DNA of 25,136 bases. It comes from a virus. Below the pieces are notes generated by a model, which searched no databases, had not been told where the DNA came from, and saw only the letters and a program-made list of their open reading frames with translations. This document shows, piece after piece, positions 3,702 through 18,883 of the stretch (the stretch's first letter is position 1; every line of letters starts with the position of its first letter). The position numbers were made by a program, and so were the translations under genes. The stretch is from IMG/VR virus record IMGVR_UViG_3300003937_000191, positions 1 through 25,136 of that record, one strand, 5' to 3'.

Positions 3702-6041
3702 ATGGTCGGAATAAGTGAGATGCAAGTAAGAAAGAGAGATGGTTCGCTAGAGAATCTGGATTTTGATAAAATCCATAAAATGTTAGAATGGTGTAGTAAT
3801 GGATTGAATGTGTCAGTTTCGGACACAGCAATATCGGCTCAAATAAAAATAGTTAACAAGATATCTTCGTCAGATATTCAGCAAACGCTTATCAAATCTG
3901 CGGCTGAAAAGATATCCACAGAAAGTCCAGATTATGATGTTTTCTCTGGGCGGTTGCTTGTGACGAATATGCGTAAACAGGTTTATCATAATATCAAGCC
4001 AACTCCATTCGGAGAATATATTAAATCCCACGTAGACCGTAAATTATATTCACCAACGATTTTGGAGAAATACTCAGATGAGGAGATTGAAAATCTTGGC
4101 TCTTTTCTAGATTATGATAATGATATGAACCGTGGATACGCTTCTATCATCCAATTAGAATCAAAGTATTTGCTCAAAGACGTTAAGAATGATATGCTTC
4201 TGGAAATGCCACAGGAAACTTTTATGATTATTCCTATGGTTATCTTTGCGGATGAGAAGAAAAACAGAACACAGTTAGTCATAGATTTTTATAATGCACT
4301 AAAGAATGATGAAATGAGTTTGCCTACACCAGTTATTTCTGGTGTTCGTACTCAACTCAAAATGTTCTCTTCTTGTTGCAAGATAAAAATGGGTGACGAT
4401 GCAGAATCAATATTAGCAACTGAATATGCTACGTCTTTGATGACAAGTCAGAGAGCAGGCATAGGTATTGATATGGGTCCTGTTCGAGGAGTTCTGGCAC
4501 CTGTAAAGAACAACACTGTTAAGCATACTGGTGCATTGCCGATTCTTAAAGCAATCGAATCTGTATCCAAACAATTTACACAAAATTCATTAAGGACTGG
4601 AGCAACCGTAGTCAATTATCCTATTTTCAATTGGGAGATTATGGATGTCTTGGAGTACAAGAACAACCAAGGCTCCAATACTACACGAGCAAGATTTATT
4701 GATTACTCTATAGGTATCACGAGTTTATTCATTGAGCGATTGATGAAGAAACAGGACTTTACTCTATTCTCATCTGAGGAAGTTCCAGAACTATTCGAGC
4801 AATACGGAAAAGGTAAGAAGTTTGATGAAGCATATAAGATGTATGAGAACAAACGAGGAATCAGAAAGAAGACCTTACCCGCATCCGAAATCTTCAATAA
4901 ATTAATTAAAGAACGAGTAGGAACGGGCAGAATCTATATTCATTTCATAGACAATATTAACAATCAGGGAATGTTCACAGAACCAGTCACACAGACGAAT
5001 TTATGCTCAGAAATCTTCCTTCCTACCAAACCAATGAAGTTTGAAGGACTCAAAAGGACTAAATACGAGAAGATAGCAGATTATGACAGGGATAATGGGA
5101 TGATAAGTCTTTGTATCCTCGGCTGTATTAACTTCGGAAAGTTGCAGAACATCACTAGATTGGATGCGTTAACCGCTTTAATGGTTCGCTTTCTTGATAA
5201 TCTAATTGATGTGCAAGAATATCCACTAGATGCGGCCGAGTATCCTACAAGAGCATATCGATTCCTAGGTATTGGAATATCTGATTTCGCCCACTTTCTT
5301 GCCAAGAATGAAGCACGTCTAGGGACTGTAAAGTCTCTTGAATTGACACATAAATGGGCAGAACGGTTTCAGTATGGCTTGATTAAAGCCTCTATGAAAT
5401 TGGCAAAGGAACGTGGTGCTTGTGAAGCATTTGAATTTTCAAAATATTCTCAGGTCAAGTTTCCTATAGACACGTACAATAAAAATGTTGACAAGATACA
5501 GGAGAATAAGTTATTATGTGATTGGGAACATCTAAGGAAAGAAGTTAAGAAGCACGGAATGCGAAATTGCACATTATCAGCAATTCCTCCGACTGCTAGT
5601 TCAAGCCTAGTTTCCAATTCAACCCAAGGCATTGACCCAATACAGTCAGTGACAGATACATTTGAATCTGCCGCATATACGGTAAGAAGTCTAGTTCCCG
5701 ATTGGGATAAAGAAGACTACTATATGAAGGCTTGGGAATTTCCTAATAACGATAGTTCAGAATATATCAAATTGATGGCAGTTGTTCAGAAGTTTATTGA
5801 CCAAGGAATGAGTACCAATCAATGGTATGACTTAACGAAGATAGAAGGAAAGGTGTTAGACAGTAATAGAGTAAAAAGAGATATCCTAACAGCGTACAAA
5901 TATGGACTGAAAAGTCTGTACTACATTCGCTCAAAAGATAAAGAAAACACGAGCGAGACGTTGACCAATTTAACAGGACTTCCAGATGAAGTTCCTGTAG
6001 ATGATGGCGAAGCCTGTGAGGGTGGTGCGTGTGCTATATAA
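3702..6041 (+). CDS. nrdA: Ribonucleoside-diphosphate reductase, class Ia, alpha (large) subunit
   Basis: 779 residues, close to the usual length (about 760). It reduces ribonucleoside diphosphates to deoxy forms together with NrdB. An N-terminal ATP-cone (about residues 5-95: VRKRDGSLENLDFDKIH...) suggests allosteric activity control. Catalytic residues are present: Cys225 in MFSSCCKIK and Cys471 in ISLCILG (the redox pair), N433-L-C435-S-E437 (thiyl radical Cys435), Tyr740-Tyr741 in SLYYIRS (radical transfer) and Cys772/Cys777 in CEGGAC (C-terminal shuttle). A second Cys at 226 beside the active-site Cys is unusual. ATG 3702 has GGAG five bases upstream. It forms an operon with nrdB, 15 bases downstream. 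Confidence 0.97.
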   Translation: MVGISEMQVRKRDGSLENLDFDKIHKMLEWCSNGLNVSVSDTAISAQIKIVNKISSSDIQQTLIKSAAEKISTESPDYDVFSGRLLVTNMRKQVYHNIKPTPFGEYIKSHVDRKLYSPTILEKYSDEEIENLGSFLDYDNDMNRGYASIIQLESKYLLKDVKNDMLLEMPQETFMIIPMVIFADEKKNRTQLVIDFYNALKNDEMSLPTPVISGVRTQLKMFSSCCKIKMGDDAESILATEYATSLMTSQRAGIGIDMGPVRGVLAPVKNNTVKHTGALPILKAIESVSKQFTQNSLRTGATVVNYPIFNWEIMDVLEYKNNQGSNTTRARFIDYSIGITSLFIERLMKKQDFTLFSSEEVPELFEQYGKGKKFDEAYKMYENKRGIRKKTLPASEIFNKLIKERVGTGRIYIHFIDNINNQGMFTEPVTQTNLCSEIFLPTKPMKFEGLKRTKYEKIADYDRDNGMISLCILGCINFGKLQNITRLDALTALMVRFLDNLIDVQEYPLDAAEYPTRAYRFLGIGISDFAHFLAKNEARLGTVKSLELTHKWAERFQYGLIKASMKLAKERGACEAFEFSKYSQVKFPIDTYNKNVDKIQENKLLCDWEHLRKEVKKHGMRNCTLSAIPPTASSSLVSNSTQGIDPIQSVTDTFESAAYTVRSLVPDWDKEDYYMKAWEFPNNDSSEYIKLMAVVQKFIDQGMSTNQWYDLTKIEGKVLDSNRVKRDILTAYKYGLKSLYYIRSKDKENTSETLTNLTGLPDEVPVDDGEACEGGACAI

Positions 6042-10965: not shown

Positions 10966-11059
10966 CGAAACTGATGAAGTTTTCATAGGAACAAGAGAAT
11001 GGACTATTAATCTTTTCGGAGGCTATGCAAGATGGAAATGGGCAACTGGAAATGGATGA
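10949..11059 (+). CDS. Possible micro-protein, 36 residues
   Basis: ATG 10949 lies inside the end of the previous gene; GTG 10952 is also possible. The product (MVTSSSETDEVFIG, then TREWTINLFGGYARWKWATG) is protein-like and aromatic rich, but has no clear ribosome site. It overlaps the next micro-gene. Confidence 0.35.
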   Translation: MVTSSSETDEVFIGTREWTINLFGGYARWKWATGNG

Positions 11060-11112
11060 CCCTTATGTTTGTTATGGGAATCCTTTTCGGCAAATACGTT
11101 TGCGGAGCATAA
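11032..11112 (+). CDS. Micro-protein, 26-residue membrane peptide
   Basis: ATG 11032 preceded by GGAGG at 11018-11022. The product MEMGNWKWMTLMFVMGILFG plus KYVCGA is one hydrophobic helix with a Cys near the end. Its stop (11110-11112) touches the 5' edge of the tmRNA acceptor segment, so the two may share a transcript. Confidence 0.45.
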   Translation: MEMGNWKWMTLMFVMGILFGKYVCGA

Positions 11113-11114
11113 TT

Positions 11115-11410
11115 CGTTAACAGCGTAAATTTAGTATCGGAGGTTTCACAGGACGAGGGTGCGAATCCCTCCACCTCCACCATAAGAGTCCTTGAGCGGT
11201 CTAGTACGGTTTAAGGGCTTTTATGATGGGGGTGATTTAGGAATCGACTGGTTATACAATGATATTATTCGCTCGACCTACTATACAAAAGTCGTTAAAA
11301 TACGTATAAATAAATGTAACTGGCAATACAGATACATACGCACTAGCGGCATAGAGACCACTAGTTGAGGATTTCCGAGGGGTTACCTTATAACCAAATA
11401 ACCCCTCACA
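11115..11410 (+). ncRNA. ssrA: Circularly permuted (two-piece) tmRNA gene
   Basis: The 3' half comes first. T-arm GAGGG-TGCGAAT-CCCTC (11155-11171) is followed by acceptor strand CACCTCC (11172-11178), discriminator A and encoded CCA (11180-11182). After a 45-base intervening segment, itself an imperfect 10-bp hairpin (11184-11193/11213-11222), the 5' half starts with GGGGGTGATTTAGGAATCGA (11228-11247), the tmRNA 5' signature. The acceptor stem pairs over 7 bp with G3-U70 (11230/11176), the alanine identity element. Helix P2 forms between 11261-11267/11132-11138 and 11270-11273/11122-11125. Pseudoknot PK1: 11274-11277/11291-11294 and 11282-11286/11304-11308. Then the tag frame, helix ACTAG/CTAGT around the stop, and a 9-bp hairpin (GAGGGGTTA/TAACCCCTC). 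Outer ends are approximate. Confidence 0.92.
11322..11354 (+). other. tmRNA proteolysis-tag reading frame
   Basis: The resume codon is GGC at 11322 after GTAACT. The tag GNTDTYALAA ends with TAG (11352-11354), which lies in the loop of the helix at 11342-11346/11360-11364, as in other tmRNAs. The C-terminal ALAA is the ClpXP/ClpAP-recognised ending found in E. coli (ANDENYALAA). A Gly first codon is less common than Ala. Confidence 0.9.
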
Positions 11411-11660
11411 GAATTAAAAAACCGTGTCTGAGAGGTTTAGATTCTTGTTAGTGACCGATTGAGATAGAATAGAGGCTCAATTCGCCAGTCCTTAGAATCG
11501 ATTAAAGGGGATACCTAGTAGATGTAAAAAATCTTCCCCCGAATGGTTGTTTACGGTGCAACCAACGAATTTATGAGAGAGATGCCTTCGGGACTTTCTT
11601 GTGAATGTAGGGAGAGTTCTTAATTATGAGGCTCTCAATTTAAAACTTGCTTATATAAGG
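11411..11660 (+). other. Structured non-coding stretch downstream of the tmRNA
   Basis: About 250 bases with no convincing reading frame but dense hairpins: GATTCT (11440-11445) / AGAATC (11494-11499) enclosing CGATTGAG (11456-11463) / CTCAATTCG (11476-11484); GGGGAT (11507-11512) with ATCTTCCCCC (11531-11540); TGGTTG (11544-11549) / CAACCA (11559-11564); and GAGAG (11612-11616) / CTCTC (11632-11636). It could be the 3' part of the tmRNA precursor, a separate small RNA, or the leader of the Hsp20 gene. Confidence 0.5.
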
Positions 11661-11668
11661 AGAAAATT

Positions 11669-12115
11669 ATGACTAGGCAACTTACCACAGCACAGGGGTT
11701 TTTCGACCCTTGGACACACCAATCCTTCGGACTTGATAATATCTTTCAAGCGATGGAGCAATTCCAAAATCAACCAAACCACCAGAAGTACCCTCCGTAC
11801 AATATCGTCAAAAATGATGATAACTATGTACTAGAGTTCGCTCTTGCGGGATGGTCTATGGACGAATTGAAACTTGTACTTGAGAAAAATGTCCTGACAG
11901 TTTCAGGCCAAAAGGCTGAAAGTCAAACAGAAGGTGAAAGCAATTTCGTTCATCGGGGCATAGCAAACCGTTCATTCCAAAGTCAATTCACAATAGGTGA
12001 TAGCGTTCACGTTAAGAATGCTGATTTAGTTAATGGTGTATTGACGATTAATATGGACATTGTTATACCAGAAGAGGACAAGCCGAGAACTATTGATATC
12101 GGCTCTCAAGCCTAG
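11669..12115 (+). CDS. Small heat-shock protein, Hsp20/IbpA family
   Basis: 148 residues; ATG 11669 after ATAAGGAG. The alpha-crystallin domain spans about 42-140: PPYNIVKNDDNYVLEFALAG, then MDELKLVLEKNVLTVSGQK, FVHRGIANRSFQSQFTIGD, and NADLVNGVLTINMDI. The N-terminal arm (FFDPWTHQSFGLDNIFQAM) is typical of IbpA-like proteins. It would hold unfolded proteins in the cytoplasm; Hsp20 genes are frequent in T4-like cyanophages. The C-terminal I-x-I/V motif appears as IDIG. Confidence 0.93.
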   Translation: MTRQLTTAQGFFDPWTHQSFGLDNIFQAMEQFQNQPNHQKYPPYNIVKNDDNYVLEFALAGWSMDELKLVLEKNVLTVSGQKAESQTEGESNFVHRGIANRSFQSQFTIGDSVHVKNADLVNGVLTINMDIVIPEEDKPRTIDIGSQA

Positions 12116-17230: not shown

Positions 17231-17887
17231 ATGGAAAATTTAGTTATAACACCACTACTCACATCTCTCTTTATAATATTGAGAGAGGGGTTCGAGGCGA
17301 TGTTAATAGTGATGTTAATATTCACATATCTAGGCCGATTTAATCTAGGACACACCAAAAGAGTGTGGGTCTATGGAGGAATCTTCGCAGGAATACTTGG
17401 AAGTATTGCCGTAGCATTGGGATTCAAATTCATAGCAGGACTTACACACGCTCACGAAGAATACTTTGAATCAGTTTGTATGCTTCTAGCATCTGGAGTA
17501 TTGGGCTATCTAGCCTTCTGGTGCCACGGAGCAAAGAATCACTTTGAAGAAGATATACAGAGTAGACTATACGCTCCTTCAATATCTATCGCTTCATCAT
17601 TAGCGTTATCTTTCGCTGTTATGATAGCAATACTTAGGGAAGGATTCGAGATAGTCTTGTTTTACGCGGCTCTATTGTCATCTGCATCCGCAGATAATCT
17701 ATCAATAGTAGTCGGGGGCATTGTAGGACTTGTCGGCTTATTAGTAGCCTATAATATGCTGAGAAAAGGTATCGATAAAGTGCCTACCAAACAAGTCTTT
17801 TTATACAGTAAATATTTCTTTATCGCACTTGCGCTATATTTCGCATATGGTGGAATCAATGAATTGATTGAATTAGCGCATCATTAA
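17231..17887 (+). CDS. FTR1/EfeU-family iron permease
   Basis: 218 residues; ATG 17231 after AGAAGGA. It has two REGFE motifs, at 18-22 (ILREGFEAML) and 136-140 (ILREGFEIVL), each on a predicted membrane helix; these are the iron-translocation residues of the Ftr1/EfeU family. About seven helices: 8-33, 46-68, 82-98, 117-134, 138-151, 156-174 and 190-206. It is shorter than typical EfeU (about 275). The family moves ferric iron, usually after oxidation by a partner (Fet3, EfeB/EfeO); none is seen here, although the next gene encodes an exported protein. Likely role: extra iron during infection, for example for NrdB. Iron permeases are rare in phages as far as I know. Confidence 0.9.
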   Translation: MENLVITPLLTSLFIILREGFEAMLIVMLIFTYLGRFNLGHTKRVWVYGGIFAGILGSIAVALGFKFIAGLTHAHEEYFESVCMLLASGVLGYLAFWCHGAKNHFEEDIQSRLYAPSISIASSLALSFAVMIAILREGFEIVLFYAALLSSASADNLSIVVGGIVGLVGLLVAYNMLRKGIDKVPTKQVFLYSKYFFIALALYFAYGGINELIELAHH

Positions 17888-18553: not shown

Positions 18554-18883
18554 ATGAAAACATTGACTTATAACAGAGGAGATAAAGTAATTATTGAAGG
18601 TGATGATACTAATTTCGATGCTTACATTATCTTAGATGGAGAAGTTGACGTTACGAAAGATGGGAAATTTCTAGCAACGCTGTACGAGAATTCCCTCTTT
18701 GGTGAGATAGGATTGGTTGACAATCGACCAAGAACTGCAACCTGTACTGCTAGAACTAGATGTGTGCTTGGAGTTGTAACGAAGGAAAATTATACTAGGA
18801 TACTTGCTCATAAACCAGAGTATTTAAATCCTATAATGAGACTAGCAGTCGAGAGATTGCGTAATACACTTGAAAAAACCTAA
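18554..18883 (+). CDS. Free-standing cyclic-nucleotide-binding domain
   Basis: 109 residues, essentially one CNB (CAP_ED) domain with nothing attached. The beta-roll begins at residue 4: LTYNRGDKVIIEGD, DAYIILDGEVDVTKDG, LYENSLFGEIGLVDNRPRTA (43-62), TARTRCVLGVVTKENY. The phosphate-binding cassette keeps Gly50, Glu51 (ribose contact) and Arg60 followed by Thr61 (phosphate contact), so binding of a cyclic mononucleotide is plausible. The end is a short helix (NPIMRLAVERLRNTLEK). There is no DNA-binding, kinase or membrane domain. It could buffer or sense host cAMP or cGMP, or sequester a defence signal such as cCMP/cUMP; both are inference. Confidence 0.85.
   Translation: MKTLTYNRGDKVIIEGDDTNFDAYIILDGEVDVTKDGKFLATLYENSLFGEIGLVDNRPRTATCTARTRCVLGVVTKENYTRILAHKPEYLNPIMRLAVERLRNTLEKT

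Follow-up and report, generated by a model that had tools for sequence, protein, structure and literature searches.

We analysed a window of 25,136 bases, the whole of the IMG/VR virus record IMGVR_UViG_3300003937_000191, which by its sequence and predicted structure encodes a circularly permuted tmRNA at positions 11119-11407 of the plus strand, followed on the same strand by a small heat-shock protein gene, hsp20 (11669..12115; Pfam HSP20 E 6e-15; PHROG 432). The acceptor (tRNA-like) piece, delimited at 11119..11182 by the RF04321 and alpha alignments and by ARAGORN, holds the P2 5' strands, the T-arm (stem GAGGG/CCCTC, loop TGCGAAT), the acceptor 3' strand CACCTCC, the discriminator A and an encoded CCA. 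Between this CCA and G1 of the coding piece lies a 45-nt intervening segment (11183..11227) whose predicted hairpin continues the acceptor stem, as expected of a precursor cut by tRNA-processing enzymes, and which is predicted to be removed during maturation. The coding (mRNA-like) piece of 180 nt (11228..11407) begins with the acceptor 5' strand GGGGGTG, and we infer that it ends at the base of a conserved 3' hairpin. The order of parts is thus the reverse of a one-piece tmRNA (RF00023), where the acceptor 5' strand comes first and the CCA last.

Each element that a sequence-only reading of this DNA had described could be placed on coordinates. The T-arm, acceptor 3' strand and CCA do precede the coding piece, with the 45-nt hairpin segment between them, and the two acceptor strands form a 7-bp stem (GGGGGTG/CACCTCC) with a G3-U70 pair, the identity element for alanine, that is invariant in the eight sequences compared. 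The pairing of P2 across the two pieces, also part of that reading, joins 5' strands AGCG and TAGTATC (11122..11138) to 3' strands GATATTA and CGCT (11261..11273), and its P2b helix covaries among those sequences. Pseudoknot PK1 (CGAC/GTCG and TATAC/GTATA; 11274..11308), the tag frame GNTDTYALAA with its TAG stop (11322..11354; ARAGORN and coordinate check) and the P5 hairpin that carries this stop codon in its loop (11342..11365) follow in turn, and the piece closes with the 3' hairpin (11377..11407), which has a covarying stem and a conserved TTACCTTATNACCAAA loop. The tRNA-side helix adjoining P2, P2c, is weak in the window (5 of 10 pairs) and well formed in relatives.

The Rfam covariance-model check that the earlier reading had proposed returned two matches above threshold: the tmRNA_permuted model RF04321 at 11122-11354 (75.7 bits, gathering 47, E 4e-13) and alpha_tmRNA, RF01849 (54.3 bits, gathering 50). 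The beta_tmRNA model RF01850 gave 50.0 bits, below its gathering score of 84, and ARAGORN called a permuted tmRNA with the tag GNTDTYALAA. Run on bacterial permuted tmRNAs, RF04321 yields 140-158 bits (140-148 for the alphaproteobacterial two-piece form), about twice the score of the window, and on one-piece bacterial tmRNAs mostly 28-42 bits, which indicates that the window tmRNA is permuted but divergent. Sub-threshold matches of SAM riboswitch, microRNA and plastid types were set aside, as they coincide with the T-arm or hairpins by chance.

Several proteins encoded in the window place it among the T4-like phages. A gp32 marker (Pfam E 1e-40) is accompanied by the large and small chains of a class I ribonucleotide reductase, ThyX, Hsp20 and a Cpn10 homologue, and gp23 is present in related records. 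Identity to the closest isolates is about 50% for gp32 (Prochlorococcus phage P-SSM2 and Pelagibacter phage Mosig), about 41% for ribonucleotide reductase and at most 43% for Hsp20, and when the tmRNA region was compared by blastn with 50,697 phage records, only short T-arm matches came back, Mosig among them. By these comparisons the phage has no close isolate. It belongs to an uncultured T4-like marine clade, and the window and its relatives are probably incomplete metagenomic contigs. The window also encodes an FTR1-type iron permease and a protein with a cyclic-nucleotide-binding domain (17231-17887 and 18554-18883). Just 5' of the tmRNA ends a small hydrophobic reading frame, MEMGNWKWMTLMFVMGILFGKYVCGA (11032-11112), and a similar frame, MGMNKCCYKWMFMMTMIGILFGRYVCT, occurs in contig L176 (5056-5139).

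Scanning IMG/VR with the neighbouring hsp20 yielded six close relatives, all of which carry a permuted tmRNA directly 5' of hsp20; a profile scan added L015, L017-L019 and the distant L070. RF04321 matches exceeded the cut-off in 10 of 13 related phage records. Since ARAGORN missed the tmRNA of L018/L019, whose tag is ANDSYYALAA, the tmRNA counts are lower bounds. Scores with the other two-piece models vary across the clade: alpha_tmRNA gives 42 bits for L006/L007 (gathering 50), and beta_tmRNA gives 59-79 bits for L008, L018, L009 and L004, its best clade score being 79.2 and every clade member falling below the gathering score of 84.

To ask whether the helices are maintained, we compared eight distinct tmRNAs of related contigs, pairing helix strands within each sequence and, as a control, strands swapped between sequences. 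Pairing within sequences was complete or nearly so for the acceptor stem (56/56 versus 91% swapped), T-stem (40/40 versus 73%), PK1a (32/32 versus 71%), P5 (59/60 versus 71%) and the 3' hairpin (69/69 versus 50%), and P2b paired in 55/56 cases versus 57% swapped, whereas P2c (86% within versus 84% swapped) was uninformative; because helix registers were set by eye for each sequence, especially for P2b and P2c, with the other strands largely fixed by position, the within-sequence values are optimistic, chiefly for these two helices. Compensatory changes in related phages, whose absence the sequence-only reading had named as evidence against a tmRNA, were found across these eight sequences in the acceptor stem, T-stem, P2b, PK1a, P5 and 3' hairpin. 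In PK1, for instance, CGAC/GTCG becomes CAAC/GTTG and CGTG/CACG, and TATAC/GTATA becomes GATAC/GTGTC. All eight tags end in ALAA or AIAA, encoded by varying codons, whereas their N-terminal portions diverge and their full length ranges from 9 to 17 residues; the N-termini of close relatives include GNTDTY, ANTEAY, VDSETY, GNDYNY, DNVNY, ANDSYY and the 17-residue ANNADYISANRGVALAA. The compensatory changes, the invariant G3-U70 pair and the preserved tag end together show that selection maintains this tmRNA, in all likelihood as a functioning two-piece RNA that would rely on host SmpB, as no SmpB gene was found in the 13 records.

The tmRNA-hsp20 adjacency is conserved in the window clade, and the 260-nt leader between the two genes appears to contain two further RNA elements; neither this RNA-rich leader nor hsp20 directly 3' of it had been remarked on in the sequence-only reading. 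The first, at 11414..11565 on the plus strand, comprises an AACC/GGTT hairpin, a GGGG..CCCC hairpin and a GGTTGTTTACGGTGCAACC hairpin whose loop is able to pair with a 5' ACCGT; it is kept in L004, L005, L008, L009 and L018, with a reduced version in L020-L022, contigs in which no tmRNA was found. The stem of one hairpin covaries (GGTT/AACC, AGTT/AACT, GGTA/TACC and GGAA/TTCC), and in the possible long-range pairing of its ACGGU loop with 5' ACCGU both sides are altered in L022 (ACCAU/AUGGU). Rfam has no match for this RNA and its class is unassigned. Because the leader as a whole has an unremarkable fold z-score (-1.0), the case for a conserved structured RNA, which we regard as modest, rests on conservation and covariation. 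Matches to L099-L101 in a pattern scan for the leader RNA were dropped on inspection as chance.

The second element is a ROSE-like RNA thermometer leader of hsp20 (11578..11662, plus strand), with hairpins at 11578-11599 and 11612-11636 and a Shine-Dalgarno (SD) hairpin, CTTGCTTATATAAGGAG, at 11646-11662. It has a covarying hairpin, and the SD pairs with U(U/C)GCU, leaving a bulged G. The ROSE_3 model scored the window leader at 27.6 bits (E 0.0016) and that of L025 at 32.1, below the gathering score of 43. The sequence pattern of the SD hairpin occurs at 67 of 75 marine-phage hsp20 loci, whereas the remaining SD-ATG sites of these loci show it in 4 of 276 cases, and the hairpin is visible in the isolates P-RSM4, HTVC115P, Mosig and Syn30. 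Judged on pattern and pairing, the hsp20 leader of the window is a putative ROSE-like thermometer, of a type that precedes most of the marine-phage hsp20 genes compared; in the open-access literature we came upon no account of a ROSE element in a phage.

A T4-type late-promoter motif, TATAAATA, lies inside the tmRNA gene itself (11305..11312, plus strand), between PK1 and the tag and 364 nt 5' of hsp20. Of 31 phage hsp20 genes, 21 have the motif NATAAATA in the 400 nt that precede them, against 4.0 expected, and the sole copy within this distance of the window's hsp20 is the one inside the tmRNA. The sole late-promoter copy is likewise within the tmRNA in L004-L006 and L015, and L008 has CATAAATA. 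That 11305-11312 serves as an hsp20 late promoter nested in the tmRNA gene is put forward as a suggestion only, because the motif partly overlaps sequence that tmRNAs conserve anyway. A scan for sigma-70 promoters gave no more matches than in shuffled sequences.

The intervening segment ranges from 45 to 232 nt among relatives and, although that of the window is without a protein gene, several of the longer ones contain one. A gene for a 53-residue protein (pattern MKKKRVGKRGR..GW.KR.P.CT.CT.IRWMGN...) lies wholly within the permuted-tmRNA segment in L006 (4543-4704), L007 (876-1037), L015 (2010-2171) and L180 (742-903), and L181 and L182 also carry it nested in this way. The L006/L007 and L015 versions differ at 31 sites, distributed 7/5/19 over the three codon positions, with no frameshift and with 17 synonymous and 8 non-synonymous codons, a pattern that marks the gene as one under purifying selection. 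In L183-L188 the same protein is encoded by a stand-alone phage gene, and in L180-L182 the gene lies inside another tmRNA, whose surroundings differ; its nested occurrence in independent metagenomes argues against misassembly. The permuted tmRNA of L180 (~668-1060) and its counterparts in L181 and L182 have a very short pre-tag stretch, ANNSDYSSASYAIAA, apparently lack PK1 and lie away from hsp20. Unrelated open frames fill the segment in L009 (64 residues; 4264-4495) and in L070 (49 residues, MYKIVIDDGYKKYVKDKSRSK...; ~1860-2010). The 2025 tmRNA database paper singled out one tRNA within an intervening segment as unique (PMC11915505), and we found no mention there of a protein gene in such a segment; protein genes nested in the intervening segments of phage tmRNAs thus appear to be undescribed.

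Taken together, these sequence comparisons make it very probable that this phage gene specifies a working tmRNA of the circularly permuted, two-piece type. From what is known of two-piece tmRNA biology, one precursor transcript would span both pieces, host RNase P and 3' processing enzymes would excise the intervening hairpin, and the resulting pieces of ~64 nt and 180 nt would be held together by acceptor-stem and P2 pairing. Once charged with alanine by host AlaRS, this RNA would be brought by host SmpB and EF-Tu to stalled ribosomes, where translation would switch to the tag, and ClpXP or other host proteases could degrade the tagged product. As host mRNA and genome are broken down during infection, damaged mRNAs should be common, and by freeing ribosomes blocked on them a phage tmRNA would keep ribosomes available and limit damaged protein. 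The conserved placement directly 5' of an hsp20 gene with a ROSE-like leader would suit a part in protein quality control as infection proceeds. The sequence-only reading is supported in the identity it proposed, a T4-like phage with a permuted tmRNA, and in the likely function, the routing of incomplete proteins to ClpXP being inferred from the conserved -ALAA end.

A second, less likely but still appreciable possibility is that the RNA is made and charged, and works by the normal tmRNA mechanism, mainly to compete with or modify host trans-translation: the phage tag would replace the host tag, and the gain would lie in which proteins are degraded, and when. The strong divergence of N-terminal tag parts among close relatives that keep the -ALAA end speaks for such a use. 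Tag N-termini vary among bacteria too, however. The intact tag frame and its conserved end exclude an inhibitor that lacks a tag, as in phage DS6A (PMC11915505).

Far less credible than either a rescue or a tag-replacing tmRNA is a passenger gene of host origin, now decaying or used only as DNA, for example in recombination or as an attachment site. In favour of this, integration often takes place at tmRNA genes, and fragments of host ssrA can be acquired by phages (PMC9004378), but both ends of the gene are intact, its helices covary across divergent relatives, and no integrase was noticed among those window ORFs that were searched. The 3' hairpin motif TTACCTTATNACCAAA has 70 exact matches in 84,980 bacterial and archaeal genomes, none of them in a tmRNA, which makes recent capture from a sampled species unlikely. 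Tags and intervening segments differ among close relatives while the helices are kept, which also argues against passive recent capture, and we consider the passenger reading largely refuted. That a standard one-piece tmRNA or a tRNA cluster was taken for a permuted tmRNA, as the blastn similarity of the T-arm to tRNA-lysine genes might suggest, can be dismissed with near certainty, because the permuted model scores far over threshold and mostly gives one-piece tmRNAs the low scores cited above, the acceptor 5' strand lies 3' of the CCA, and the two pieces pair.

With the working two-piece tmRNA as the preferred reading, permuted tmRNAs emerge as a lasting feature, kept by selection, of a lineage of marine T4-like phages, far diverged from their bacterial counterparts. 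In this clade ribosome rescue is linked with a chaperone gene of the phage, which offers a natural test of whether phages bring a protein-quality-control module of their own. More tentatively, and with somewhat less than even confidence, we propose that the tmRNA heads a single quality-control locus, in which a rescue RNA, a new RNA and a thermometer-controlled hsp20 would be combined with a nested late promoter, and that relatives nest small protein genes in their intervening segments. If so, processing of the tmRNA precursor in these relatives would also release a small mRNA, and the nested protein genes raise the question of how a single transcript accommodates both tmRNA maturation and translation.

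The sequence-only reading had suggested that no T4-like phage with a permuted tmRNA might have been described before, which earlier reports do not support. Methylophilales phage Melnitz, a T4-like OM43 myophage, was reported in 2022 to encode a two-piece tmRNA, and ARAGORN pointed to two-piece tmRNAs in phages more widely, 53 unique ones, of which 50 were marine or aquatic (PMC9004378); SsrA is likewise already annotated in Pelagibacter phage Mosig EXVC030M (MT647606, Kyanoviridae). Permuted tmRNAs in T4-like marine phages are therefore already published, and that of the window is a new, divergent member. Apparently new are its surroundings: the hsp20 adjacency, the leader RNA, the ROSE-like thermometer and the protein genes in the segments of relatives.

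Melnitz and the window phage are both marine T4-like phages with a two-piece tmRNA, but hsp20 is the neighbour only in the window; in Melnitz, ssrA precedes a late-transcription coactivator and is reported together with a glutamine riboswitch (PMC9004378), and an Rfam scan of the window found no glutamine riboswitch or glnA-type RNA. The Mosig tmRNA (RF04321 93.6 bits, alpha_tmRNA 67.6, tag GEDNFALAA) also differs from that of the window, in that it is not beside hsp20 (tmRNA near 111.6 kb, hsp20 near 8 kb) and is without the TTACCTTATNACCAAA 3' hairpin of the window clade. A further permuted tmRNA, with no annotated feature, lies at 1440-1816 in Alcaligenes phage vB_Af_QDWS595 (L003, Schitoviridae), inside a tRNA gene cluster (RF04321 111 bits, tag ANDNVYAAAA). 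One-piece phage tmRNAs are phage-borne like that of the window but unpermuted, and the tmRNA-like RNA of DS6A is phage-borne but without a tag frame. Among bacterial forms, the alphaproteobacterial two-piece tmRNA (RF01849, Caulobacter type) shares the order of parts, G3-U70 and PK1 with the window, yet the window barely exceeds the threshold of this model and its relatives either score 42 bits or suit the beta model better; the betaproteobacterial two-piece tmRNA (RF01850) has a 3' hairpin motif, CCUU..ACCAAA, that resembles that of the window clade.
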